A stretch of 64,000 nucleotides of DNA from Actinernus sp. WN-2022 (Eukaryota > Cnidaria > Anthozoa > Actiniaria > Actinernidae). The translations under genes and the position numbers were made by a program. This document shows positions 3,511 through 62,933 of this stretch, in pieces. The notes under the pieces were generated by a model. It saw only the letters and a program-made list of their open reading frames with translations. It ran no database searches and was not told the DNA's origin. The stretch is from contig JAOWCC010001589.1 of assembly GCA_030867875.1 (NCBI GenBank), forward strand, positions 141,085,745-141,149,744, in the 5' to 3' direction. Position 1 is the first letter of the stretch; every line of letters starts with the position of its first letter.

Positions 3511-6500
3511 AAGTGGAAACCGCTAACGATAATCATATAAATGGTTTCCACTCCTCCCCTCTCATTTATGTAAGCTTTACAGATCTTACACAAAAGTTGC
3601 AAACTATACATTGTATTTATCGTGGTTTGTACCAAAACTATGATTTTGATGCTACAACCTTATACAATCCCTTTCTAAAGGGGGAGGGCACCGTTATTAA
3701 CACGAAATGCATATCATTTTCAACCCCTCCCCCCTCAGTTTTTCAAGGTTCGCATTTCTTACCCCAAATTGCAACCAATATGTTGTGTTCGTCGTGTTTA
3801 CTACCAAAACTATGATTTTTAAGCTGCAACTTCATTCTAGCCACTTCTAATGGGGGAGGGTTCCATTATTAACAGGAAATGCATAGGATTTTCCACCCCT
3901 CCCCCCTCAGTTTTGCAAGGCTCGCAGATCTTATCCCAAATTTGCAACCAATATGTTGTGTTCGTCTTGTTTAGTACCAAAACTATGATTTCGACGCTGC
4001 AACCTTATTTAATCCAGTTCTGGACTGGGAAATAGCAAATGAAACCGTCCCAGCATGCTTTGCGGTCAAAACGGAAAGGGCGATGGATTTTTACGGGTAG
4101 AAAGCAACGTCGTAGAGACATGGGGTCTTCACCAAAATGTTACACATAGAAAACTCCAGGGGGTCTTCTTAATTTGGTTGACGCTGAAGTTCAGGGGGGG
4201 AAATGGCAGCCAAAGTAAAATTTCAAAATGGCTTAACCCCCCCTGAACTTCATTTGCGCGAAGGTTACATCAAAAATTTAATCTAGTTGGATGAAATTAC
4301 ATATGATAGGCTAGTTTTACTTCCCGTTAACATAGCGTAACATACCAAACATTAAGACCTCCAAGCTATAAATTACAATTATTCCCTACCCCACTCCCCC
4401 TGGAAATGGTATACCCATTTGTGTTAGCAAAATGTCTCCGGAATGTCATTCATGTTCACGTTCAACACCGAAATACAGAATTGACGTTAACCAGTTGCCC
4501 AGGCCCCGCTCGGCCAAGCAAAAAGCGAGAAAAAACGCCTTAACCCCCCCTGAACTTTATTTGCGCGAATTAGTACGCAAAAATTTCATCTAGTTGAGCG
4601 AAATTACATAAGATAGGCTGTTTTTTATGCCATTAACTATGCGCTAGATACCGAACATTAATTATTTATTTAATTAATTAATTATTTATTTATTTATTTA
4701 ATGATCGTATTATTTCTATGATTATCGTTAGGAACAAGTGGATACCGCATTACCGCTAACGATAATCATACAATGGTTTTCACCCCTCCCCCCTTATTTT
4801 TGTAAAATTAGCGGATCTTACACAAAATTCACAAACGATATGTTGTATTAATTATGTGTTTAGTATGAAGACTATGATTTTGATGCTGCAACTTTATTCA
4901 TCCCTTTCTAATGGGGGAGGGTAATACTATTAAAAGGAAATGCATATGAGTTTCCACCCCTCCCCCCTCAATTTTGAAAGGTTCGCAGATCTTACCCCAA
5001 ATTTGAAACAGACATGTTGTGTTCGTCGTGTTTAGTACCAAAACTATGATTTTAAGCATCAACTTCATTCAACCCACTTCTAAATGGGGAGGGTACCATT
5101 ATTAACAGGAAAGGCATATGATTTTCCACCCCTCCCCCCTCAGTTTTGCAAGGTTCGCATTTCTTACCCCCAATTTGGAACCAAAATGTTGTGTTCATCG
5201 TGTTTAGTACCAAAACTATGATTTTACTGCTGTAACCTTATTGAATCCAGTTCAGGACTGCGAAATAGAAAATGAATCTTGTCCCAGGATGCTTTGCGGC
5301 CAAAAAACAAAAGGGCGATGGATTTTTAGAGGTAGAAAGGAACATGGTAGAGACAGGGTTTTCACCAAAGTGTTTCCCATAGAAAACTGCAGGAGGTCTT
5401 CTTAATTTGGTTAACATTGATGTTCAGGGGGGAAAATGACAGCCAAAATAAAATTTCAAAATGGCTTAACCCCCCCTGAACTTCATTTGCGCGAATGTTA
5501 CATCAATTTTTTTATCTAGTTGGATGAAATTACATATGATAGGCTTGTTTTAATTCGCATTAACATAGCGCAACGTACCTAACATTAACACCTCCAAGCT
5601 ATAAATTACAATTATTCCCTACCCCACTCCCCCTGGGAATGGTATACCCATTTGTGTTAGCAAAATGTCTCCGGAATGTCATTCATGACAAAAGTGATCG
5701 GTTTTTAAATTTTCACGTTCAACACCGAAATACAGAATTGACGTTAACCAGTTGCCCAGGCCCCGCTCGGCCAAGCAAAAAGCGAGAAAAAACGCCTTAA
5801 CCCCCCCTGAACTTCATTTGCGCGAGCGTTAACGCAAAAATTTAATCTAGTTGGGCGAAATTACATAAGATAGGCTGGTTTTTATGCCATGAACTAGGCG
5901 CTAGATACCGAACATTAATTATTTAATTAATTATTTAATGATCGTATTATTTCTAAGATTATCGTTAGGAATTATTATTATTATTATTATTATTATTATA
6001 ATTTCTATTGCGCCCTTTCGCATAAAATGATCAAAAGCGCATTACATTACAATTACTACAAAAGGAATAATAAAAAATAAGAAAGAAAAAAAAAGAAAAA
6101 GAAAATAATAATAAAAAAAAAATTACAAGTTAATTAAATACATTAAAATATCTCAATTAAATACATTAAAATATCTCAGTTAAAATTATTATAAAAAGAC
6201 TATAAATTAAAAGCTAATTTAAAAAGATACGTTTTAAGTGAAGATTTAAAAAGACTAAGCGACTGAATATTGCGCAGATATTGTGGTAGAGCGTTCCATA
6301 GAGTCGGAGCCGCCACGCTAAAAGATCTATCACCGAATGAACGCAAAAGCCTCCCACTAGGGATCTTCAGTAGAACATCATTATTTGAGCGTAATTGATA
6401 GCACGGCTGTTTCTTAATCGTAATAAGGTCTCTAATGTACTGTGGAGATTGGCCAGCTAATGCTTTAAAAGTAATTAAAATAATCTTAAACTGAATACGG

Positions 6501-9500
6501 AATCTAACGGGTAACCAGTGAAGTTCATAGAGAACAGGTGTAATATGATCATATCGAGAAGTAGAAGTGATAAGCCTGGCAGCAGCGTTCTGTACGAGAG
6601 GAAACGAAAACGGGAGGCGGTTATTGTGTTTGTTGGGTGGTGATCATGAAGGGAAGGGGAGAGGGGGTGGGGCAAACAGGGTTTAAAACAAATGAGCAGA
6701 TAACTGTCTAGATCGTCGACCTCGAAAATATTTTAGTCCTACGTATACAGTCTCGATAAAGGTTCAAAATGGAAAAGTTTCGAAAATACGTTTTTCCGCA
6801 AATTCTAAATCTAAAAGCCCTAATAGACGGTTCGCGGTCATCGTTGCATAGTAAACAGGCCAAGCATTGCATTAACGTAGAGAAATCTTTACGAACGAAA
6901 AGTAGGAAGACCGAAAAACGAAGATCCACGCTCATTTTATATAAAAAATTACATTGTTCCTTGTACTATTTTCCATCTGAGTGAAATGAAGCTGTTGTTG
7001 TTGTCCCTGCCTGATATTGATTGTTTGATTACTGTGGTGCCATTTTTCTGTACTCCTAAAAGAGTGTTGCTTACTGGAATCCACACTGGTTTCTGTAGAA
7101 GCATCGAGCATCGATAAACTGTATTTCTAGCTCTGTTCTGCAGCTCGTCTGAACTTTGTAATCGGCCGAGATTGAACACAACCTGAATCGCTCTGATTGG
7201 CTAATGTTAATGAATTAACCTTGGAGGCAGGACTTTTTTGTATTAGTCAACCGTGAAATGCATCGAAAACCTTTATCAGGCTGTTTCTCGGCTCTTCTTT
7301 TCGGCGGCCAAAAACAGAACTTTGTTGAAGTCCAACTTTTTCGCGTTTTGTCCAATTTTCCTAAATTTTTTCACGAGCCACAGAAAAGAGCCGTTTCTAT
7401 AATACTATATTTCGGGGAATTTTGAAATTGTTTTTTATTCAGGTTTTTTGACCTGGTTTGTATAAAAATGGGATGAAAAACTACTTTTTCAACTTTGAAA
7501 AGGGATAAAATCTGTGATAGTACGCAACATATCAAAAATCTCCGACACACAGTATTTGAGACAATTTAGTTGTGATTCGAAAGGAATCATTTCGCGTTGA
7601 AAAATATACAACATTTACGCTTTTAACTTTTGTTCAAAACGGATTAAATATATATAGTGATTATACTTTATTAAATTCAAGACCTTTAAAACGGTATATA
7701 GTACGTCTATGTGGCTTTAATTGCGACGCTGTAAGAGCGTTTTTCCGAAGTGACACATCGAACCTTTATCGAGACCTTACCCGGTAAGAGGGTTAAATAT
7801 TATCTCCTCTTTATCGAATATTCAGCTCCTTTCCTTCAAACACACCCGGGAAAAACGTTATGCTCCGCTGGCTGATAGAAAGAAGGCTGTTTTGATTCTG
7901 ACTAGCTTGTATATTCTCGCTCCACTGATCTTAGCACTCTGTCTACTCTTCCCCTCGGGAGGTACAGGATCGCGGTTGATCCCAATGGATATTTTCCACT
8001 ATTCTCTACCACAATCTTGCACGCTTTTCTGTCAATTCGCCTAAGCTCTGCGATAGGTCAAGTGCTGTGTCCACATCAGATAGCTAGGACTGGAAGAGCA
8101 AACTGATTTGAAGCAACGGCACGGTTACAATGCGATAAAAGGCTTGACCAGATCACATATATCCTCTAATAATAATAATAATGTTTATACAGGGTGCACC
8201 ATTCACCGAAGTGTTTTACAAGGTGGCCCTGTAATGGCAACAATAAAATTATATATATAATATTTATAACTAAGTAGTATAGAATAAAATAGATAATTTC
8301 TAAGATTAATAATTTAAAATAATAAAAATATATTGATAATCTAGGAGCTAGTGAGCTTGACTTAATTTGAGTTTAAAAAGCAGTAATGAATTTACATTAT
8401 TAAGATCGAAACCTAGGTCATTAACCTCTGCATATACGCATTCGCCGCACAGTTCAAGCCAGCATGTCCTCATGCTTCAGGTTCTCTAACACGCCGAGAA
8501 ACGTGTACTGTAACCCCTCCTTCAGGCTTATTATTACAAATGACTCATCCAACTTCACTCCAGATGCATCCTGTACCTGTCCCCTTCTCACATGAACAAC
8601 AGAGCATTTTTTCAGGTTCCACTGCAGGCCGTTGTCCCCCATTGCAGATTTGGTTGACTTTAGCACTCTGTTTAATTTGCTCTCGGAAGCGGCGAAGACC
8701 TTGAGATCGTTGATCTAAAGCAGCTCTGTAATCTTGGTACTTATTGGCTTTGATAGCCTATACTCTTCTGTCGCTCTCAGCCTCCATGCAATAGGATTCA
8801 TGCACATGGTAAACAGGCTTGGACACGGTGCATCCCCATGGCGCGGCCCCTTGTTGAACCTTATATATAGCCTCGGTCTTCTCACAGCCCTGCCTCGTCC
8901 TCACCATATCCACTATCACCACATCCATGTATCCACCCAGTAGTAGTAGCAGCAGCATTAGTAGTAGAATTATGGTTGAACGTTTTAGTAAAAACGGTTT
9001 GAAGTTCAAATTTCGCGTGAAATGGAACCAAAATGACCGGAGCACGAGAGGGTAATTTCTCGGATGAAGTTCACGCATGCGAAAGCGTTTTCCAGAATTG
9101 TCGCTTTCGTCCTCAGTTGAAGTCATATTTCGCACCCACATCTCATACTCGCTCAGGTAAATTTCTATTCATGTGCAGTAATCACAAGGGAGAAGATATA
9201 TGCAGCGCAAAATATATGCTTTAAAATATTGCCGATAGAATTGTACTGACATTTTGGTGTTTTTTTTTTCCAGTGGAACCTTCTTTGCGACCGCGCGTAC
9301 CTGGGCGCTGCTATCCAGTCCAGCTACTTTGCTGGCATGCTGATTGGCTCGTTACTCAGTGGCTGGCTGGCTGATTCATTTGGCAGGCGGAAGTGCATGT
9401 TTATAAGCACTGGAGTTTTTGTGAGTTCGTATTTCTTGCTTTCCATCAAATTAGTTGTACATTAGGATTTATATAATCTTGGTGAACGTTTATAAAAGTT

Positions 9501-15500: not shown

Positions 15501-18500
15501 TTAGACAGTGATTTTGCCGAGATTTTCGGATTCACCGGGTCGATCATTTGAAGTTTATACTCGCACGAAATCCGGCGAGACTGCATGATAATAATTTCCC
15601 ATTCAAGCGAGCTGTAATTCGTTCACTGTTCTCTCTTGAACTGGTTCTCTGCTACTGCCAGCAACGAAATTGCCTGCTAGCAGATCGATCTCTCTCTCTC
15701 TGTCTGCAAGTAAAAATAAAACCGAGGAGAGAAACCTCTCGCTTTCATAATATTTATTAGTATTACCCAGATTACCCGGAGAGTGTGTTCTATGTTGATA
15801 GCAGCGACGGGTGAGCGGTAAATATTATAGTACAGCCAAGTACTGCTGTATCAAACACTTTGTTGACTTCACATTCAACTTGTAAGGTACTGTTAGTTTC
15901 ATCAAGGTCGACATCCATGTTCAAATCAAAATAATTATCATGTCACCAACATTAAGAATACGCTCAGTTCGCGAGGTTCCCGCCGTGAGTCTCGGATATA
16001 AACAAAAACAAATCACGCTAAGCACTGTGGGTGAGACGGCCCTTTAAATACATATCGAACTTTTTTCAATCTCCAGTTCATCGTCGCTTATTCTTAGTTT
16101 TGTTATGACTTGCTTATGTTTAATATTTTTCACACCCGTAATTTGTCTTAAATTTCCTTTAGGTCCTAAGTTTGTTTTTAATTGTTAAAATTATCTCTTT
16201 CATCATTGACTGAGCGAGACGAAAAGTTCATGGATTTCTATATCATTTACACGTCTAAGTATTTGTAACATAATTATGACTAATAGAACAGTCTGACATT
16301 TTAAAAGGGGTGCAAACATGGTGCGAAATGCTGTGATGTTGTCCAAAACATATTTTCTGATTGTCCTGACCCCCAACAGATCTGAAAAATATGTTTTAAC
16401 CAGAATGGAATTTCAGGAAATATATATTAATTCATTACCGTCCTAAAATAGACAAATATATACTTCAGATATATTTCTTATCATATCATTGCGGTAAAAA
16501 TACATTATTCAGATATCATGGGGATCAGGCCAATCAGAAAATATGTTTTGGACAACATCCCATAATTGTAAGTATTGTTATTAGTATTATTCCACACCAA
16601 AGGACTTACAGTATATATTTGTCAAGGAAACCCTTTTTGGCATTGACTGTGTATATCAACTCCCTCGGTTATAAGCTCCTTAAAACCCATACGAAGTTAC
16701 CATAAGCGCAGCTTTTATAGCGAGATTTTACGGTATGAGAAGGTGAGTGAAACATGTGCGTTAAGTAACCTAAACATGCTGTCAAGCGCTCTTTCTGATC
16801 TATAGAGCGAATGTCGTATGAGTGGGACACAAATACGGCATGTCCGTAACCTTACCGTAACCTTACCGTAACCGTACTGTAACTTACTGTACCGCAACTC
16901 TGTGATTTAGTTGGATCTGAAGGGCAAAACGATGTACAGTATTATTATTATTATTATATTATTATATTATTATTACAGTAATCGTGCCATAAGTAATTGC
17001 CAGAAATTGCCCACGAGTACGAAATCCGCTCTATTTAATTGAGTCATGAATTAAATAGAGCGCATGAAGAAGGACGTGTTTACAGTTTGGATGGTTACAA
17101 AACCGCGATTCTAAACTTGTCACCTCGCGCGAAAGATATCGCACTGACTTATACTTTGTTGATTTCACAAAATACGTGCTCGTTCCACGTACTTAGAGTG
17201 TTCCCCGACACCGCGCGATGGCTTCTGGCTAATGGCCGTATAGACGAAGCTCAAGCAATCCTTACAAAATGCGGTGGTGAAAAGAAAAAGCCTTTGGACC
17301 AGAAGGCATTGCGAGCCGTGCTGGAGGACGTGAGAAGGGACCAGATAGAGCGGGAGAAAAAGACAAATGTACAGAGGCACACTCCAATGGATCTACTGCG
17401 CACTCCAAAAATGCGGAGATGGACCATAATCGTTTGTTACAACTGGTGAGACTATAATAATTATGATATACCGGCCGTGTCAGATTTTGCACTTAGGGGC
17501 TGGTCATAAATTAGCAGAGGGGGAGGAGGTGGTGGAGAAAGGGGGAGGGTCATACATTGTTGAACTCCCAAACATTGAGGGTAATAAAAAATAGGCGGGT
17601 TAGGTTATAGGGGAAGAAGGAGCAAGAGGATGAGGGGCATAATATTTCATGTTTATTGTCGGGGTTATATATTTTTAGACTTTTTGATTTTCTTCTCCAC
17701 CCCCTCTCCCCTACTAACGTATGACCAATCCCTTACTAGTCACTATTTCTAACATAAGATTGTTTTTAAGTTAGTCAGCGAAATGTTTTACTGCAAGATA
17801 TAAAACTGATGCAATGTTGTTTTGGATTTATTCAATTGCAACTCTGAGATACAAACACCATTTTTGTTAACAGTTCATACACCCGAGTTTTCAAGAAGCT
17901 GTCTAGCGAGCGCGCACTGAAAAACTGTGGTGTTCGCACGCAGAAAGCTGATTGGCTATTGCTGTTACAGCCTCCTTTTTAATTGGTTATTACGTCTACA
18001 AGACTTTTGGAATGTTGAAGCAGTGAGAACTGGTTCGTGAGCTGTGTAGTATACACTTATACTAGCACTCGTTTTCGCCTCTATTTGAACTCGAAAATAA
18101 AAATGGCAAGTCGAATAACTACGAATATGTTTCGAATCGGACGTCAATTTTTTGGGATCGAGATGTGAAGACAAGGGTATATGGACCTTGGATATCTTCA
18201 AGTACTAGCAAAAATATATTATAGCAACATTTGTAATAAATTTGCCAGTAATACATACCTATTATTAAAGTGCCACTACGACGAAATTTGACCATTTTTT
18301 TGGCCACTTTTTTGTATTCCATAAGAACAAACAGTGGCAGAAATATCCAAATCAGTGAAAAAAGTTTGAATGGGGCCAATTAGACCACACATTTGAAAGA
18401 GAGTTTACCGTCAAAATCACGTTCGCCATTACTCGAATCCGTTCCCGTGGGCGAGGAATGCCTAGTCATTTTTTAGCGTATGTGACGTCATACACTTAAC

Positions 18501-21500
18501 GCATCGTTCTCAAGTTGCTTCGAACCCATACATTTCATCTTATATTGTCGACAAACTCACACTGCGAATTTTGCTGTGGTTTAGTAAATAACGACCTAAA
18601 ATCTGCATCAGATTCTTCAGAACATAGTAATGTGTCTTTCTGTTTAAATTTATTGCCGGATGTTGATGATTTAAGGGGGAAATAGAGCCGCTGGCGACCG
18701 AGTTGAAAGCTGGACGAATGAATAGTCGCTAAAATCGCTTGGGAAGTGCCCTGCCAGTAAGTAGTGCTAGCTAGCAGAGGTTTCTTATCTTTTGGGGGTA
18801 ATTTTTTCCCAGGGTATTTTCCCTGGTTCGGCTTTCAGGTTGTGCTGTTACTGGATCCAGGCTACAGGGAGAATTCAGCGGAGAAATCACTAAGGTAATG
18901 ATCAGCAGTTTATAAGTCCTAAGTTTGTTCATTGTTTATAGTGAAACCCGGATTGCTAGTTCGTAAATGAGAGTGATCGAGAATTATCTGTGTCCCGGCA
19001 ATAGATTTTCCGGCGAATCTACATTCTAAAATACAATGTAATTGCTATAAAATTAAATCGGTCTCTTGTCTAACATGAAATCGTGAATGATAAGAATTTA
19101 CTAGAGACTAAAACAATGTATTGAAACTGACTGATCTGCAGCTTTTACAGTGGCTATCACAGAACCAAACTTCGCGCCCCCCGTTTTTGACACACAAACA
19201 ACTGAAACAAGGTACTTCATGAAATAATATTGGTGGTTTCTTCTGTGGTTTATTGTCTTGAAAATAAAATTAGCAGTAAATTAAAAGGCGTACTACCTCG
19301 ATAGGTTTATCTGTTTATAGGAAACAGCAATATGAGTTATTTATGATAAACTATGTTCTCAGCAAACGTAGCCGCTTATTTTTCGGTCAATCTATACTAG
19401 TACGGTCTTACCGGCTATTCCATGTGATACAAACAATTATGGAGAAGCTTCTGTCCTCAAAACGTTCCAAACCATCCTTGCATGAGGCTTGAAGAGAATT
19501 ACAAACCGTATTATTGGGCCAGTCTAGAAACCTAAGACCTAAGACCTAGACACCTAAGACCTAGACACCTAAGACCTAGACACCTAAGACCTAGACACCT
19601 AAGACCTAGACACCTAAGACCTAGACACCTAAGACCTAGACACCTAAGACCTAGACACCTAAGACCTAGACACCTAAGACCTAGACACCTAAGACCTAGA
19701 CACCTAAGACCTAGACACCTAAGACCTAGACACCTAAGACCTAGACACCTAAGACCTAGACACCTAAGACCTAGACACCTAAGACCTAGACACCTAAGAC
19801 CTAGACACCTAAGACCTAGACACCTAAGACCTAGACACCTAAGACCTAGACACCTAAGACCTAGACACCTAAGACCTAGACACCTAAGACCTAGACACCT
19901 AAGACCTAGACACCTAAGACCTAGACACCTAAGACCTAGACACCTAAGACCTAGACACCTAAGACCTAGACACCTAAGACCTAGACACCTAAGACCTAGA
20001 CACCTAAGACCTAGACACCTAAGACCTAGACACCTAAGACCTAGACACCTAAGACCTAGACACCTAAGACCTAGACACCTAAGACCTAGACACCTAAGAC
20101 CTAGACACCTAAGACCTAGACACCTAAGACCTAGACACCTAAGACCTAGACACCTAAGACCTAGACACCTAAGACCTAGACACCTAAGACCTAGACACCT
20201 AAGACCTAGACACCTAAGACCTAGACACCTAAGACCTAGACACCTAAGACCTAGACACCTAAGACCTAGACACCTAAGACCTAGACACCTAAGACCTAGA
20301 CACCTAAGACCTAGACACCTAAGACCTAGACACCTAAGACCTAGACACCTAAGACCTAGACACCTAAGACCTAGACACCTAAGACCTAGACACCTAAGAC
20401 CTAGACACCTAAGACCTAGACACCTAAGACCTAGACACCTAAGACCTAGACACCTAAGACCTAGACACCTAAGACCTAGACACCTAAGACCTAGACACCT
20501 AAGACCTAGACACCTAAGACCTAGACACCTAAGACCTAGACACCTAAGACCTAGACACCTAAGACCTAGACACCTAAGACCTAGACACCTAAGACCTAGA
20601 CACCTAAGACCTAGACACCTAAGACCTAGACACCTAAGACCTAGACACCTAAGACCTAGACACCTAAGACCTAGACACCTAAGACCTAGACACCTAAGAC
20701 CTAGACACCTAAGACCTAGACACCTAAGACCTAGACACCTAAGACCTAGACACCTAAGACCTAGACACCTAAGACCTAGACACCTAAGACCTAGACACCT
20801 AAGACCTAGACACCTAAGGTCTCTTAGGTCTCTTAGGTCTCTTAGGTCTCTTAGGTCTCTTAGGTCTCTTAGGTCTCTTAGGTCTCTTAGGTCTCTTAGG
20901 TCTCTTAGGTCTCTTAGGTCTCTTAGGTCTCTTAGGTCTCTTAGGTCTCTTAGGTCTCTTAGGTCTCTTAGGTCTCTTAGGTCTCTTAGGTCTCTTAGGT
21001 CTCTTAGGTCTCTTAGGTCTCTTAGGTCTCTTAGGTCTCTTAGGTCTCTTAGGTCTCTTAGGTCTCTTAGGTCTCTTAGGTCTCTTAGGTCTCTTAGGTC
21101 TCTTAGGTCTCTTAGGTCTCTTAGGTCTCTTAGGTCTCTTAGGTCTCTTAGGTCTCTTAGGTCTCTTAGGTCTCTTAGGTCTCTTAGGTCTCTTAGGTCT
21201 CTTAGGTCTCTTAGGTCTCTTAGGTCTCTTAGGTCTCTTAGGTCTCTTAGGTCTCTTAGGTCTCTTAGGTCTCTTAGGTCTCTTAGGTCTCTTAGGTCTC
21301 TTAGGTCTCTTAGGTCTCTTAGGTCTCTTAGGTCTCTTAGGTCTCTTAGGTCTCTTAGGTCTCTTAGGTCTCTTAGGTCTCTTAGGTCTCTTAGGTCTCT
21401 TAGGTCTCTTAGGTCTCTTAGGTCTCTTAGGTCTCTTAGGTCTCTTAGGTCTCTTAGGTCTCTTAGGTCTCTTAGGTCTCTTAGGTCTCTTAGGTCTCTT

Positions 21501-24500
21501 AGGTCTCTTAGGTCTCTTAGGTCTCTTAGGTCTCTTAGGTCTCTTAGGTCTCTTAGGTCTCTTAGGTCTCTTAGGTCTCTTAGGTCTCTTAGGTCTCTTA
21601 GGTCTCTTAGGTCTCTTAGGTCTCTTAGGTCTCTTAGGTCTCTTAGGTCTCTTAGGTCTCTTAGGTCTCTTAGGTCTCTTAGGTCTCTCAGGTCTCTTAG
21701 GTCTCTTAGGTCTCTCAGGTCTCTCAGGTCTCTCAGGTCTCTCAGGTCTCTCAGGTCTCTCAGGTCTCTCAGGTCTCTTAGGTCTCTCAGGTCTCTCAGG
21801 TCTCTCAGGTCTCTTAGGTCTCTCAGGTCTCAGGTCTCAGGTCTCAGGTCTCAGGTCTTAGGTCTTAGGTCTTAGGTCTTAGGTCTTAGGTCTTAGGTTT
21901 CTAGACTACCTATTATTGGTACTCAACTAAAGGCTTGAATTATTCATGTAGCGAAATGCCAGCTTTGTGGTTCGTTAAATTGCTACAGTCCTGTACAATG
22001 AACAAACTTGAACGATTATTTCTATTCAAAAGTTTTGTTTGCTTTTCAAAGCGGGAAAATGGTACACTTTCTTACTACATATGTTAGTTCGCGTGAAGGT
22101 TTGTATGGGAAAAGTAGCCACACGTGTTGTTGTGGGAAGTTTTGACTGTGACATTTCCCAGTCACTGGTTGAAAGAATCAGTCTCGCCGGCCGGCTAATT
22201 TCAGAGCGTTTTCTTGACTTTCTATTTTCGTTCTAAACATAGTTTGAAAAAAGCTCCAACTCGACGCGAATTTGTGCGAATTACTTCAAATTTTCACAGA
22301 TTGTTCGCAATTTATATCAGCTAAAAAAACCGTGTCAGCGATTTTTTTAATTTTTAAAAGAGAGGCGCTGAGAGCGATTCCCGCATCTATACTTGGATTG
22401 CGCGTTAGCAGTTTCACGAAGACCAAAATATCTTCAGAACGGCTTCGAATTTCCATAATCGCCGTCACAGTTTCGTAAACAAGGTCTGTGGGAGTCCAGA
22501 AAAGCAAACAGATCTTAAATTCATTAAATTGCCGTGGAGTTGGAGCTCTTGGAAACCAACTCGCTTGTTCGGAAAAGAAGTTTATTTAAAAATCGCACTT
22601 TTATCAAAATTACAAACCTTAGGTATATCGTTGTAGACAATTTTATAGGCTTTAAATGAGGTATAATTTATCTAAATACGACGAATATTCGAGACGCTAC
22701 TTAATTTTATCCGGAACAGTACCCTGAAGGTATACGATAACCTTAAGTGTATGACGTCACGTACGCTAAAAAATGACCAGGCATTCCTCGCCCACAGGAA
22801 CGGGTCGCGTAATGGCGGATGTAAAATTCAAGATTCGGAGTTCAAAAAATAAGACTTCCCGTCGTCGTATCGAAAAACGGTTTGAACTGGTAATAATATA
22901 GCCACTCTACTTTACGAATATGAGAAAAAATTGATATGTCAAAATTTGATCGTAGGGGCACTTTAACCGAGTGCGAGGTATGTACGGGAAGTTATGGACC
23001 ACAAATTGGCTAATCATAAGCTCGCGAAATTACTTAGCTATATAGTAAACTAAGTCATTGTCAATTCATTGCTTTTCAGGTTCGTGGTTGCTCTTGTTTT
23101 TTTTGGATTTGATCTCTACACGGTTCGGCTTCCAGGAAGTATTTACCTCAACTACTTTATCATGAACCTCATTGATATCCCCGTTCTCGGACTGGCATGG
23201 GTTCTGCTACACAAGTATGTCATAATAATTATCTTTAAAGCAGGCGTTAAATCTGGTGTATCCCTTTAATTAAAAGTAGAACCGTTGACTCCGCGACACT
23301 CAGTTGCCAATGTCGGTGTTGGCGTAGTGTATCTTTTTCGGTATAAAAACAATCGTTAGCATGTTCCCCGTTCTCTGATAGTGGGAAAGGGTGAAAGAAA
23401 AAGTGAGGCAAAGTTTTCTCAATCCCCAAAGTCATATTTCCCCCGATATTCTCTCCCTTAGTCTCCCTCTTCTTTTGCCTCGCTTTTCCTTTCGCTCTCG
23501 CCCGGGGGAGAGAGAGGGGGGGGGGGGGGGGTACTCCCTTATATTGCCTATACGGGTATGTGCCGCGGGATAGAGTATGGTTTTTGAGCTGCCCAGGGTT
23601 GGGATAGGGTATGGATTTTGATATACTTGTCGTTGGCGCCATGCTTAGCGCTCTATCGACCACACTACAGCTTAAAACACCATATTAAAACAAAACAACG
23701 GCTTTCGTAGAGTAATTTTAATTTAAAACTGTTCGGTATCTGGGACATAGTATATGTTTTAGTTCAAGTCTGGGATAGGGTATAGAGTTTTTTGCTTCAA
23801 GTCTGGGATAGGATATGGTAAACGGCATTAATAGGTCTGGGATAGGATATGGTAAACGGCATTAATAGGTCTGGGATAGGGTCAGGGTTTTGAGGTTACT
23901 GCGGCACACCCCTCCTCCCCACTATCTTGCTACTATCGGCCAAACTCAAGTTTTGATTGGCTAATAAGCTAGCAACCGCTAACTATGTTAATTGTCGATA
24001 GTCGTAAGTGGCACAGGAATAGAGTAGATTTCGCCGTTATGAGTGGGACAAACTACGGCATGTCCGTGACCGTACTGTAACCGTACTGTAACCGTACTGT
24101 AACCGTACTGTAACCGTACTGTAACCGTACTGTAACCGTACTGTAACCGTACTGTAACCGTACTGTAACCGTACTGTAACCGTACTGTAACCGCAACCGT
24201 GCTGTAGCCATTGCTGTATTTGTCCCACTCATACGATATCTGCTCTAGTTTTGCCATCAGTCATTACTCAAACGTACTTCATGTCAGAATCTGAGTCACA
24301 AATTACGCATAAAAATGAAAGTTAAGTATCAACTGATTTGCTCTTGTAGGGTTGGACGAAGGATTCCATATTGTGGTTTCATGTTCGTCGTTGGTATAAG
24401 TTCTTTTATTATAACGAGCATTCCTTCAGGTAAGAAAACAAACCCTAAATGTGTAATCACGGTTTCTGGGAAACTTTCCACCCACCCCTCCCTTGGGTAT

Positions 24501-55485: not shown

Positions 55486-56110
55486 CTGAAGTGATACTGC
55501 AGAAATCATATGCTTAGGATGACAAGAATGGAAAATAAACAGATTACCATTACGATTTTGTTAAACCGTATTTAAAGTGTTTACCGTGTACTTCCGACCA
55601 GTGAATAAGTTTCAGCGAAGCGACCCCTGTGGCATAGATCCATATGGCGCTCAGCGTCGCCATACATCTCCTCGTTGTAAGAATTGTCTTGTAGTCCAGC
55701 GGCTTTATTACCGTCAGCCAGCGAACCACGCTGATTGCCGTAAGGGTCAGAATCGAGGCAATGCCACTCAAAATGTCAGTCACAACAAGAAAATCCATGA
55801 GGGATTTTCCAAGTATCTTTATAATGTGTTCCACGTGTTGCTCGTTGATTTGGATAAGCATCCACCATGGCATGCTAAAGACGGCGACAAGCATGTTCGC
55901 AACACATAGGTTTATGATAAAAACCTTTGTTCCTTTTATGGAGTGCTTTCCCTTGATTAATGCTGAGCAAACGAATGAATTGACCAGCAAGGTAAGCAGC
56001 ATTAGAACGGTCGTGAGCACGATTACTAGAACACGCTTTGTCCGACTGCCATGAAACACTGTCAGACTAATAGTAGATTCGTTGATTGAGGCATTGTTAG
56101 AGCGATTCAT
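54302..56110 (-). CDS. Class A GPCR with non-canonical switch motifs, two exons (locus span)
   Basis: Exon 1 (56110-55585) and exon 2 (54753-54302) join in phase 1 to give 325 aa with seven predicted helices. Rhodopsin-family marks: N44 (1.50) in LLVNSFV, P189 in TM5, CWLP at 256-259 in TM6, Pro-x-x-Tyr in TM7. Departures: the TM2 Asp (2.50) reads Asn72 (NLCVANMLV), DRY reads V129-R130-W131, NPxxY reads SPIVY (294-298), and no Cys is seen at the top of TM3 or in a very short second extracellular loop. A missing TM3-ECL2 disulfide and short loop recall melanocortin/S1P/cannabinoid-type receptors. Ligand unknown. Plasma-membrane receptor by family. Confidence 0.88.
55461..55485. repeat. (TA)n microsatellite in the GPCR intron
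   Basis: About 25 bp TA run in the 831-bp intron 54754-55584. Confidence 0.85.
55585..56110 (-). CDS. GPCR exon 1: N-terminus to TM4
   Basis: Residues 1-175 and the first base of codon 176. Starts MNRSNNASINESTISLTVFH; N-x-S/T sites NRS, NAS and NES suit an extracellular N-terminus. TM1 27-51, TM2 62-86, TM3 98-126, TM4 about 150-168. Donor (minus strand) CACG|GTAAAC. Without splicing the frame would end 11 codons later in TKS-stop. Confidence 0.87.
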
Positions 56111-59664: not shown

Positions 59665-60715
59665 CTACAGTTCAAAGTCTTTGAACCTTTCTGGACGTGA
59701 CCTCACTCTCTCTGGGTATCGTCTCTCTGGGATGTCCGTCACTGGACTCTGTTCATCAGGACTTTGTTCGTCAGGACTTTGTTCATCTTCACCTTCCTCC
59801 AGCTCTGAACCTTCCTCTTTGCTCACTGCGCTTTTGAAAAATGAAGAGTTTCTTATGATCTCAGTGTTGTCTTCTTTCTTTGCCGTCACCATTGTTCCTT
59901 TTTTGTTCACAACAATGCATCGCTCTGTGTGATAGGGTGTTTCGCTCTTCCTCTTAGAATAGTCGCGTTTAACGAGTACCGTATCACCTTCTTGGATTAT
60001 TGATGGCTTCACATAAGCTTTGTTATCCGCATAAGCCTTCATCTTAGCCTTTGCCTTACGGTCTCGATCTTCCATTTCTGGTTCTTGCTGAGGTGTCTTT
60101 ACTTCTGGGAGCTTAGTCTTGAGTGCTCGACCAAATAACGCAGTTGCAGGAGGAACTCCGGTGGTAGTGTGTGGAGTAGCTCGATAGTTCCTAAAAAATC
60201 TATGCATCTCCTGTTTCCAATTCTTATGTTCAACCTTTGCTGTCTTGACCACTTTCTTTACTGTTCGCACACATCTTTCAACCTCGCCATTGGCTCTAGG
60301 CCATCTTGGAGTTATCTTCCGATGCTTGAAACCAAGATCTTGCGCAAATGGGGGACCATTGTCTGTCTTAACCACATCTGGTATCCCAAATTCAGAGAAA
60401 CCTTTGTCTAGCCTTGGTAGTACGGTATTTGCCGATGTTGATTTAACAGTGTCCACTATTGGATATCTGGAGTAATCATCCGTAATTATTAAGAGATATT
60501 CACTGTTCGGAAGCTCGGCGAAGTCCATGCTGACTTCCTTCCATAGGGATGTTGGCAGGGGAGACATCTTGAGTGGTTCTCGTTTGCTTTCAGGAGTAGT
60601 GATCAGACACGCACCACACGATTTTACTTCTTTGTGTACCATGCTGTCTATACCTGGGAACCAGACTTTTTCTCGCAACAGTGCTTTGGTCTTAACGAGG
60701 CCTTGGTGTCCTTCG
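59665..60715 (-). CDS. Retrotransposon integrase frame
   Basis: The frame to the stop at 59665 holds a zinc-binding HHCC module (HEGHQG upstream at about 60718-60700, then CGAC), the catalytic core with Asp in MDFAELP, Asp in TDNGPPF and Glu in NGEVERCV, a PTTTGVPP-like loop (HTTTGVPPATALFG) and a basic/acidic tail. The tail has three tandem DEQSP units. No chromodomain seen. It is out of frame with the RNase H reading frame at about 60710, so pol is broken here unless the ribosome shifts. Confidence 0.9.
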
Positions 60716-61645
60716 TGAGCTAATTTTCTTTCTCTGAAGACTCTTCGGGATTATGATGCGGTTCCCTCTCAGGAGTAGTGTTCCTTGTGCATCAACCGTT
60801 ACTTCATCTCGAACGCGTTCAAAGGACTTGAATGTGTCTTTGTTGACAGCCGAGTCATCCAAAGCTGCATACCACTTGTCTGTCTGCACCGCCTTGATGA
60901 CTGCTTGAAGAGTTCTATCTTCTCTTGTCGCCTGTTTGATCTCGTCAACCGTCATTGCCTTTGGAGTCGCGTTGATCGTTATGAAGTTGACATACTCCTC
61001 CGCAATGCGCTCTTCACGACTGGTACTCCTCGTCTGTTTAACTGGATGACGGGACATGTAGTCTGCAGGGTTGTTGTCACCTCGCCTGTACTCAACTGTC
61101 GCATCATACGGTTGTAACCGCAATGACCAGCGTTCAAGCCTAGGTGTGGGCTTCGACTTCGGGTTTCCGTAGATTGCTACTAGAGGCTTGTGGTCTGTGT
61201 AGATATTAACGGGATGTCCATATATGTAGATGTGGAGGTGCTCGCACGCCCATACAACCGCCAGCGCCTCTCTCTCGGTTTGTGAGTACCGCTGCTCTAC
61301 TGGACTTAGCGCTCTACTTGCGTACGCTACAACGTGTCGTTCATCCGCGTTGTCGTTATCTCGTTGCGCGAGGATTGCTGCCAGTCCGACTGGGCTCGCA
61401 TCTACTGATATCTCCGTCCTCTTGGTTTTGTCGAAGTAAGCCATCACAGGCGCTGTCACTAGATTCTCTCGTAGCGTTGCCATAGCTGCTTCATGCGGAG
61501 TCGACCATTCCCATACACCGAGTTCTTCGTCTTTCTTGAGTTGCTCTTTTAGCTTGCTTCTAATGTGGAAAGGAACTCTTCGGTGTGGCTGGGCTACCGG
61601 CTGGACAGTGTTGTCAATGTGGAGTTTTACTTGAAAATCTTTCAA
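60692..61645 (-). pseudogene. Pol frame: RT N-terminus fused in frame to RNase H
   Basis: Residues 1-44 (counted from position 61645) are the RT lead-in (QPVAQPHRRVPFHIRSKLKE, KKDEELGV). At about 61513 the frame jumps directly to WEWSTPHEAAMATLRENLV, which normally follows the RT thumb. All RT catalytic motifs, including the YxDD box, are absent. RNase H is kept: VDASPVGLAAILAQ, YSQTEREALAVVWACEHL, YTDHKPL, and the linker CxxHP-like segment. The deletion preserved the frame. Confidence 0.9.
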
Positions 61646-62933
61646 TTTTCCCAGCCCTTGAATAAATCTGTATATTCTTCCACGAGTTGTTCTGCTCTCG
61701 TTCCCTGGAGCTTGGTGTTTGTCACACGCTGTACTTTTTGTAGCAACTCCAATTCTTGTGACGTCTTCCAGCTTAGTAGTGATCCTCCAAAACCCTCAAC
61801 TACGTAAAATACGTCTTCCACAATTTTTGACGTTGACTCAAGAGTGGTGTGCAATTTCCCTAGCACTTGGAGTGGATCACTGGACTTGTACGGGTAGATT
61901 TTTACTTTAGTCTTCTGAAGTTCTTTCTCGTCCAGGACGTTGATACTAGCACCTGAATCAGCCATGATCGTGATTGGAGTGCCATGAACGACAACTTCGA
62001 ATAACGGTTGTGGTTCTGGCAGTGTCTGTGCTGATGGAAAACAATACGCTTCTTCGTCTGAGCTGGAACTTTCGTTGACCATTTTGTTTATGTTCGGCTT
62101 GTGTTGTTTTTCTTGATTTTTCTTGTGCGTATCTTTAGATCTGCACACGGCTTCAAAATGGTTTAATTTGCCACAGCTTCTACATGACTTCTGATACGCT
62201 GGACATGTGGTTTTCCCGCCCGGATGTGGGTATTCTTTTCCACAGTTTCTGCAAACACCATTATCTGTGTTGCGTGACTTCCGGCTTGTCCCAGTTACGC
62301 GCGATTTCCTGTCACGTGACCGTCCGCCATCTTGCTTTTGGGCTGCATGGTTTCTGTCAGGATTTCTTCCAAGTTTGTTTACTGGATGCTTTTCCTCGAT
62401 GCTAGCCGCCGGGGATTTGGATATTTCCATGGCTTTTCCGGCTTCCAACAGCTGACCTAAGGTGAGACTTGGTTTTTCGAGTGCTTTCAAGCGAAGCTTG
62501 TGAGATGTGCAGTTTTGAACGATCTGTGTTTTAATCTCTCGATCTGTGTCTACGAATTCGCATGTGGTCGCGATTCGTCTCAATCTTGTATGAAACGCTG
62601 AAATGCTTTCTTGGCTTTCTTGCTTGGCCTGTCGAAACATGTATATCTTATATTCTCTGTTTCTCTTCGGCGTGAAGTAGTTGGTGAGTGCTTGACTTGC
62701 TTTTTCTAGCTGGTTTTCTTCTTCTCCTGCTTCTGTGTTGGGCAGTGTGTCGAAGATTTCACTCACACTTTCACCGGCGTAATGTAGTAAAAGAGCTCTT
62801 TGCCTTTTGGTATCTTCTATTCCCATCGCTAGTATGAGATTCTGAAAACAGGCTAGCCATTTCTTCCATCGGACTCCTACGGCGCCTTGTTCTGAATGCA
62901 CTTCGAATTTGGAAACTGCGGTAGAGTTGCCAT
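61642..62933 (-). CDS. Gag-protease frame (5' end frameshifted)
   Basis: Contains the gag capsid-like region (RWKKWLACFQNLILAMGI, LLLHYAGESVSEIFDTL, FRQAKQESQESISAFHTRLR), two Cys knuckles (CRNCGKEYPH and CRSCGKLNHFEAVC) and an aspartic protease with active site MADSGASINVLD. It ends in a stop at 61642, where pol resumes in another frame. The natural ATG appears to be at 62933-62931 but is out of frame with the rest by one base near 62905; the main frame has no ATG upstream of that point. Confidence 0.88.

Follow-up and report, generated by a model that had tools for sequence, protein, structure and literature searches.

The 64,000-nucleotide stretch of Actinernus sp. WN-2022 DNA analyzed here (contig JAOWCC010001589.1, positions 141,085,745 to 141,149,744; hereafter the window) contains an element of 2,393 bp whose two arms are different satellite arrays. 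The segment 19518-21910 is an insertion into a dispersed repeat, and both of its arrays are private to this one insertion at the level of exact matches. The element is quite probably a foldback-type DNA transposon whose arms likely grew separately in place, each from a mutated unit of its own, and whose core was likely deleted.

The insertion and its two arms

The element is set between two copies of the 9-mer TATTATTGG, the perfect flanking repeat that had been described in an earlier note on this DNA (Table 1). The inverted edges described there were also recovered, with AGTCTAGAAACCTAAG exact at both ends; the true start of the element, on the other hand, is 3 bp outside the edge motif given at that time, at the family tip GGTAGTCTAGAA. 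The unit contains no open reading frame of 150 amino acids or more, in agreement with the reported lack of coding content. The flanks form a dispersed host repeat that spans at least 18265-22966 around the insert. When the joined flanks were searched against the assembly (1.39 Gb, 1,772 contigs), 40 places were scored out of 1,657 first-look candidates, and all 40 align through the insertion site in one piece at 94-98% identity. The six empty-site copies that were read have one TATTCTTGG each, compared with TATTATTGG twice in the window; thus, a repetition of the flanking 9-mer without any insert, which the earlier note had named as one of two observations that would refute its reading, did not occur in these copies. 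The variant base A of the window 9-mer is found on both sides of the element and in none of the six empty-site copies, and it was therefore most likely present before the insertion and duplicated by it. In one copy of the host repeat (L076), the matched part is bordered by an inverted repeat of 30-31 bp (87%), and an 80-bp inverted repeat lies further inside. The host repeat is probably another DNA transposon.

Table 1. Coordinates of the element, its parts, and the surrounding host repeat in the window
Feature	Position	Strand	Basis
Host repeat, left part	18265..19517	.	96-98% to 5 of 6 empty-site copies read; L075 in two pieces
Left target-site duplication TATTATTGG	19509..19517	.	Six genomic flank copies have a single TATTCTTGG
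Left terminal tip GCCAGTCTAGAA	19518..19529	+	Two substitutions vs family tip GGTAGTCTAGAA
Left arm: 2 ACCTAAG, then ACCTAGAC+ACCTAAG dimers	19530..20818	+	Periodic from 19537 (15 bp, 85.5 periods, 100% match)
Arm junction without a core; 2-bp overlap (AG) of the arrays	20817..20818	.	Array reading and core BLAST
Right arm, inner: 96 pure ACCTAAGAG 9-mers	20821..21684	-	Array private to locus
Right arm, transition: 12 ACCTGAGAG and 4 ACCTAAGAG 9-mers, mixed	21685..21828	-	Unit reading
Right arm: 4 ACCTGAG 7-mers	21829..21856	-	Unit reading
Right arm, outermost: 6 ACCTAAG 7-mers (family's ancestral-type unit)	21857..21898	-	Unit reading and family comparison
Right terminal tip GGTAGTCTAGAA, intact	21899..21910	-	Family comparison
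Right target-site duplication TATTATTGG	21911..21919	.	Matches left duplication; empty-site comparison
Host repeat, right part	21920..22966	.	97.6-98.4% to six empty-site copies; shortest match ends 22935

The arms were split at each ACCT, and the resulting units were coded as a (ACCTAAG), b (ACCTAGAA), c (ACCTAGAC), d (ACCTAAGAG), e (ACCTGAG), f (ACCTGAGAG), g (ACCTAGAG), i (ACCTAGAGAA), and x (ACCTAGCA). In this code, the left arm reads a a (ca)84 c, continuing to 20818. The right arm is graded from the tip inward, i.e., a6 e4, a mixture of f and d, and d96, and contains 112 nine-mers (100 ACCTAAGAG and 12 ACCTGAGAG), where the unit counts are those in the assembly. The numbers given earlier, 85 exact 15-bp units on the left and about 112 9-bp units on the right, agree with 85.5 periods at a 100% match and 112.8 periods of 9 bp at a 99% match, respectively, and the arms meet without a spacer as described, since the two periodic arrays overlap. 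The statement that a shared 7-bp word is limited to the outer edges of the arms does not hold; ACCTAAG is present in every left 15-mer and in the 100 ACCTAAGAG right 9-mers. As this word is common to the units of both arms, they represent two versions of the same type of array. BLAST of the element against the 31 cores cut from other copies of the family gave no match to any of them. The predicted fold of 301 nt across the junction has an energy of -66.6 kcal/mol (z -6.3; none of 100 shuffled sequences folds as stably), and the arms are predicted to be still able to pair with each other despite their different units.

The family, its arms, and its private arrays

Copies with the same ends, 9-bp duplications, and satellite arms were sought genome-wide, as the earlier note had proposed, and many were found, with duplications of 9-10 bp. 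The exact 16-bp end motif occurs 154 times in the genome and once in the reversed control, and 22-mer ends with up to 3 mismatches occur 353 and 4 times, respectively. In the 37 fetched copies, the 22-mer pattern falls on 73 tips and 2 inner places, both in copy L012, so that the count of 353 does not reflect arm units. These 37 two-ended copies comprise the window copy and 36 taken from the first 100 listed places per end search. Perfect target-site duplications of 10 bp flank 24 of the 37 and perfect 9-bp duplications flank 8 (32 of 37 in all), counting both L023 and L027, which are two copies of one insertion; L033 has a 10-bp duplication with one mismatch (1 of 37), and none of 1,330 mismatched flank pairs passed the same test. 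The tip GGTAGTCTAGAA is found at both ends in 36 of the 37 copies, the left tip of the window copy differing at two bases, and the 19-bp tip GGTAGTCTAGAAACCTAAG is found at 34 left and 35 right ends of the 37, although the copies were chosen by exact end motifs and these counts are therefore biased and are no measure of conservation.

The 37 parsed copies have the long inverted repeats with a tandem-repeat outer part that characterize the foldback class. A typical copy is about 2.5 kb long and consists of arms of 7/8-bp units, usually ACCTAAG and ACCTAGAA, an inner inverted repeat, and a centre. The reference copy L014, with a length of 2,556 bp, has a and b units in its arms; these enclose an inverted repeat of about 650 bp and a central part that includes an 18-bp minisatellite. 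Of the 31 cores, the smallest of which is 669 bp (L037), most match the L014 core over long stretches at about 86-99%, while L018 and L059 have the family arms and tips with an inner repeat of another type. The window copy is the only one of the 37 without any core, and its arms are also the most dissimilar.

The extra length of long copies consists of inserted sequence, in some cases with its own inverted ends, and of expanded arms. L036 contains nested insertions at copy coordinates 654-1778 and 3837-7039; one nested insert has its own 93-bp inverted ends, and a second is a long interspersed nuclear element (LINE) with endonuclease and reverse-transcriptase domains that splits the right arm. 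L012 is a nest of copies, as two family tips lie inside it, and at about 5449-5880 it carries a frame that matches the beginning of a protein kinase domain (PF07714, E 1.3e-12), which is either a captured gene fragment or an unrelated insert. Another type of expansion is seen at L048 (C235:26019596-26021711), where a single family end is followed by an arm of about 105 pure 7-bp ACCTAAG units.

The composition of the arms was compared in 36 copies, with L027 dropped as a duplicate of L023. The unit-composition distance between the two arms is 0.95 in the window copy and 0.93 in the copy L040+L041, and the next highest value is 0.46; i.e., most other copies have the same units in both arms, as in a symmetric foldback, and these two do not. 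The left arm of L040+L041 (about 3.1 kb) is composed mostly of 8- and 10-bp units in 18-bp periods, and its right arm (about 5.6 kb) mostly of e and b units. The arms differ more than 1.5-fold in length in 16 of the 36 copies.

All exact 30-mers of the left c/a array in the assembly (84/84) and all exact 27-mers of the right d array (94/94) lie inside the window element. Similarly, the 18-bp g/i array in the left arm of L040+L041 is confined to that one copy (146/146 exact 36-mers), and the 394 exact 30-mers of the 15-bp e/b array are distributed between L040+L041 (346) and L059 (48). Thus, of four derived arrays tested, three occur in a single insertion each, and the fourth is found in two.

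L059 (C813:22564669-22572840) and L040+L041 (C813:29011508-29022620) are 6.4 Mb apart on one contig, and the ACCTGAG+ACCTAGAA array shared by their right arms occurs nowhere else in the genome. The right arms also share the unit ACCTAGCA. Since copies with different core types share these rare right-arm units, arm sequence was probably exchanged between the two.

Two pairs of copies differ in their arms within otherwise nearly identical surroundings. L007 and L008 are two opposite-orientation copies of one insertion, about 606 kb apart on C235, that are 99.3% identical over 1.8 kb including flank, and the same arm differs by 478 bp between them (about 786 vs 304-308 bp). Because they share one insertion but differ in the arm, arms would change without transposition. 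L023 and L027, whose flanks are shared and whose sequences agree at 99.6% over 4.4 kb, are distinguished by a single 7-bp unit of the left arm, among other small changes. If both members of the pairs are real, arms change length faster than their surroundings change sequence.

Origin of the unlike arms

The family is likely non-autonomous and Mutator-like, as judged from duplication length and architecture. Target-site duplications of Mutator-like elements (MULEs) are 8-11 bp according to the available part of one account (PMC6446971), a range that includes the perfect 9-10 bp duplications of 32 of the 37 copies, and the assignment is made because of these duplications and the long repetitive ends (PMC6446971, PMC4079207, PMC3169594). 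The window copy would have been inserted by a Mutator-like transposase acting in trans, and its core would have been lost by a deletion that joined the two arrays at the 2-bp overlap. In the left arm, one base change from ACCTAGAA to ACCTAGAC in a 15-bp dimer would have preceded copying to about 85 repeats. In the right arm, a gain of 2 bp (AG) would have converted the 7-mer to a 9-mer that was copied to 112 repeats, and ACCTGAG and ACCTGAGAG near the right tip may be leftover intermediates. The copying itself may have been confined to each arm and have proceeded by slippage during replication or by unequal exchange between sister strands. The order a, e, f/d, d from tip to centre in the right arm would correspond to successive expansions, each inside the older one. 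The earlier note had each arm expanding its own unit from a shared 7-bp ancestor, from which private arrays would be expected; the expansion of an own unit stands with the private arrays, whereas the single 7-bp ancestor is replaced by the mixed 7/8-bp array of the family.

The order of expansion is not general. The left arm of L040+L041 has a similar order (a6, e17, g23, then i/g); the right arm of L059 runs the opposite way, with derived e/b units at the tip. A rule that growth always proceeds from the tip inward was therefore rejected.

Several observations weigh against this account. Stop-to-stop frames listed in all 37 copies gave 47 non-redundant frames of at least 100 amino acids, and none of the 20 scanned against Pfam contains a transposase domain; the matches in these 20 are LINE-type domains (L036, L042+043) and the kinase piece of L012, the rest being below the cut-off. 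A MULE scan with PF10551 gave nine genome matches, which is a lower bound (150 of 204 candidates scored), and none of these at least nine has GGTAGTC, ACCTAAGACC, or ACCTAGAAACC within 1.5 kb, so that a MULE transposase sharing the family ends, sought as the earlier note had proposed, was not found there. The 7-mer AGTCTAG is present in five of the nine 3.3-kb PF10551 loci; the 12-bp family tip is in none of the inverted repeats listed for the nine, and, among the ends listed, six of the nine matches have no exact family end within 10 kb. Because no transposase was found, we only infer the superfamily. Four of the 37 copies (L017, L020, L032, and L068) have no duplication. The e/b array occurs in two copies, and the proposition that every derived array is private to one insertion was accordingly rejected. 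The lengths of the two arms of a copy correlate positively (Spearman 0.52, p 0.001, n = 36), by which strict independence of arm lengths is rejected; the arms are not fully independent. In addition, L007/L008 may be an inverted duplication, a haplotype, or an assembly duplicate, and L023/L027 could be haplotypes or assembly duplicates. Finally, private arrays would also follow from expansion in a donor copy that was later lost, and they do not fix the timing of expansion relative to insertion.

Expansion may instead have been coupled to transposition, the arms having grown in a donor or during post-excision gap repair before the finished element was inserted and the donor lost. Such an origin, which we regard as unlikely but worth weighing, fits the private arrays if the donor is gone, and whole-element events stretching both arms would give the correlated arm lengths. 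It is opposed by the 478-bp difference in one arm of L007/L008 within 99.3% identical surroundings, by the single-unit difference in the left arm of L023/L027, and by the absence of an exact match to either array elsewhere in the assembly. It is highly improbable that ectopic recombination joined the left end of one element to the right end of another. Galileo chimeras whose two inverted repeats have diverged from each other are described in the accessible part of PMC3573991, and L059 and L040+L041 share the rare right-arm units ACCTGAG+ACCTAGAA and ACCTAGCA despite their different cores; however, the Galileo chimeras described in that part have no matching duplications, while the window copy is flanked by matching duplications that both carry the variant base, its empty site is clean, and neither of its arrays was found at any other place. 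That the arrays were mis-assembled over a normal copy with a core and like arms is scarcely credible, even though pure 9- and 15-bp arrays are difficult for assemblers, because cores and mixed arms are seen in other copies of this assembly, the right arm has ordered, mixed variants near its tip, no exact match exists elsewhere from which the arrays could have been borrowed, and the insertion boundaries are clean.

In-place expansion with loss of the core thus remains our preferred reading, and the family is of interest for the origin of satellite DNA, which is an old question. Well over a hundred dispersed insertions are probably available that probably began with the same kind of short array and diverged arm by arm in one genome. 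A single arm displays, one after another, the likely ancestral unit, the mutation that altered it, the intermediates, and the expanded array, and each insertion offers its two arms as paired replicates. A more speculative idea, which we hold with low confidence, is that each insertion might be a private satellite nursery, in which both arms begin as copies of one 7/8-bp array and each can then amplify a different mutated unit into a satellite limited to that site. The sole core-less copy of the 37 also has the most dissimilar arms, which suggests, as a further part of this idea, that a spacer-free palindrome might survive only once its arms have drifted past perfect pairing.

Other features were observed outside the element. 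At 59665-62901 (-) of the window, adjacent frames, two of which have RNase H-like reverse-transcriptase and integrase domains, form a remnant of a retrotransposon of the long-terminal-repeat type, and a 186-aa frame at 55550-56110 (-) matches a rhodopsin-family receptor (7tm_1, E 1.5e-22). Two separate 172-bp tandem-repeat arrays, about 80% alike, are located at 3545-4005 and 4776-5226. Elsewhere in the assembly, the mitochondrial contig C144 (35,652 bp) matches COX1 three times, with the two whole matches 15,968 bp apart, and the circle was probably assembled more than once around. The COX1 of this contig has 97% identity to Galatheanthemum and Exaiptasia and 94% to Zoanthus, by which a sea anemone is the likely source.

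Comparison with known foldback systems

In sea-urchin TU and Drosophila FB elements, the inverted repeats have an outer domain of short tandem repeats (with 15-bp units in TU) and an inner domain, and the middle is variable. Unit lengths are graded in Drosophila FB, and the two arms of one TU or FB element are not known to differ in build. Compared with FB, the unlike arms reported in the earlier note stand; the window copy is not the sole case, because L040+L041 is a second, and the systems nearest by anatomy are Tm1, Tetris, and Galileo. The following comparisons are based on the available parts of the cited papers.

The Tm1 Mutator/Foldback elements of root-knot nematodes have composite inverted repeats with 13-15 bp tandem units, unequal repeat numbers at the two ends, 8-10 bp duplications, mostly non-coding copies, and empty paralogous sites (PMC3169594). 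The present family is similar in its tandem-unit inverted repeats, its uneven repeat numbers between ends, its duplications, its mostly non-coding copies, and its empty paralogous sites. Tm1 also has asymmetric, non-inverted 7-bp end motifs, an identified transposase, and one 14-bp unit for both ends (PMC3169594), whereas the ends here are plainly inverted through to the final base, no transposase was found, and in two copies the units of one arm differ from those of the other.

Tetris of Drosophila virilis, for which no transposase was found, has a tandem-repeat outer domain, an inner inverted domain, a variable middle, and 8-10 bp duplications, and its arms are regarded as satellite DNA seeds (PMC4079207). 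The family described here shares this arrangement, the duplications, the lack of a detected transposase, and the satellite-seeding arms. The units of Tetris are about 220 bp long and lie under a separate external flanking domain, and its satellite arrays are also found outside the element (PMC4079207); by contrast, the units here are 7-18 bp long and begin very near the tip, and each of the four derived arrays tested is found in one or two insertions.

Galileo, a member of the P superfamily, has long inverted repeats with internal tandem repeats, and some copies consist of two inverted repeats only; its two repeats expanded independently in subfamily F, and transposase binding sites are located in the repeats (PMC3573991, PMC3688188). 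The tandem repeats inside long inverted repeats, the reduction of a copy to two arms, and the separate expansion of the arms are common to both families. Galileo differs in its 7-bp flanking sequences, its P-type transposase, and its units of about 210 bp, which are repeated two or three times (PMC3573991, PMC3688188), compared with the 9-10 bp duplications and short units observed here.

In the Rehavkus/MULE outgroup of arthropods and annelids, which encodes a PHD-finger transposase, a minisatellite is located near the 3' end only, and 9-bp duplications and long inverted repeats are present (PMC6446971). A minisatellite near the end, 9-bp duplications, and long inverted repeats occur here as well; unlike in Rehavkus, the arrays are in both arms, and the duplications are mostly 10 bp (24 of 37).

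In the available parts of the literature searched, we found no single element with two different private satellites as its arms; tandem-repeat arms, unequal repeat numbers, and arm-seeded satellites are already published for Tm1, Galileo, and Tetris.

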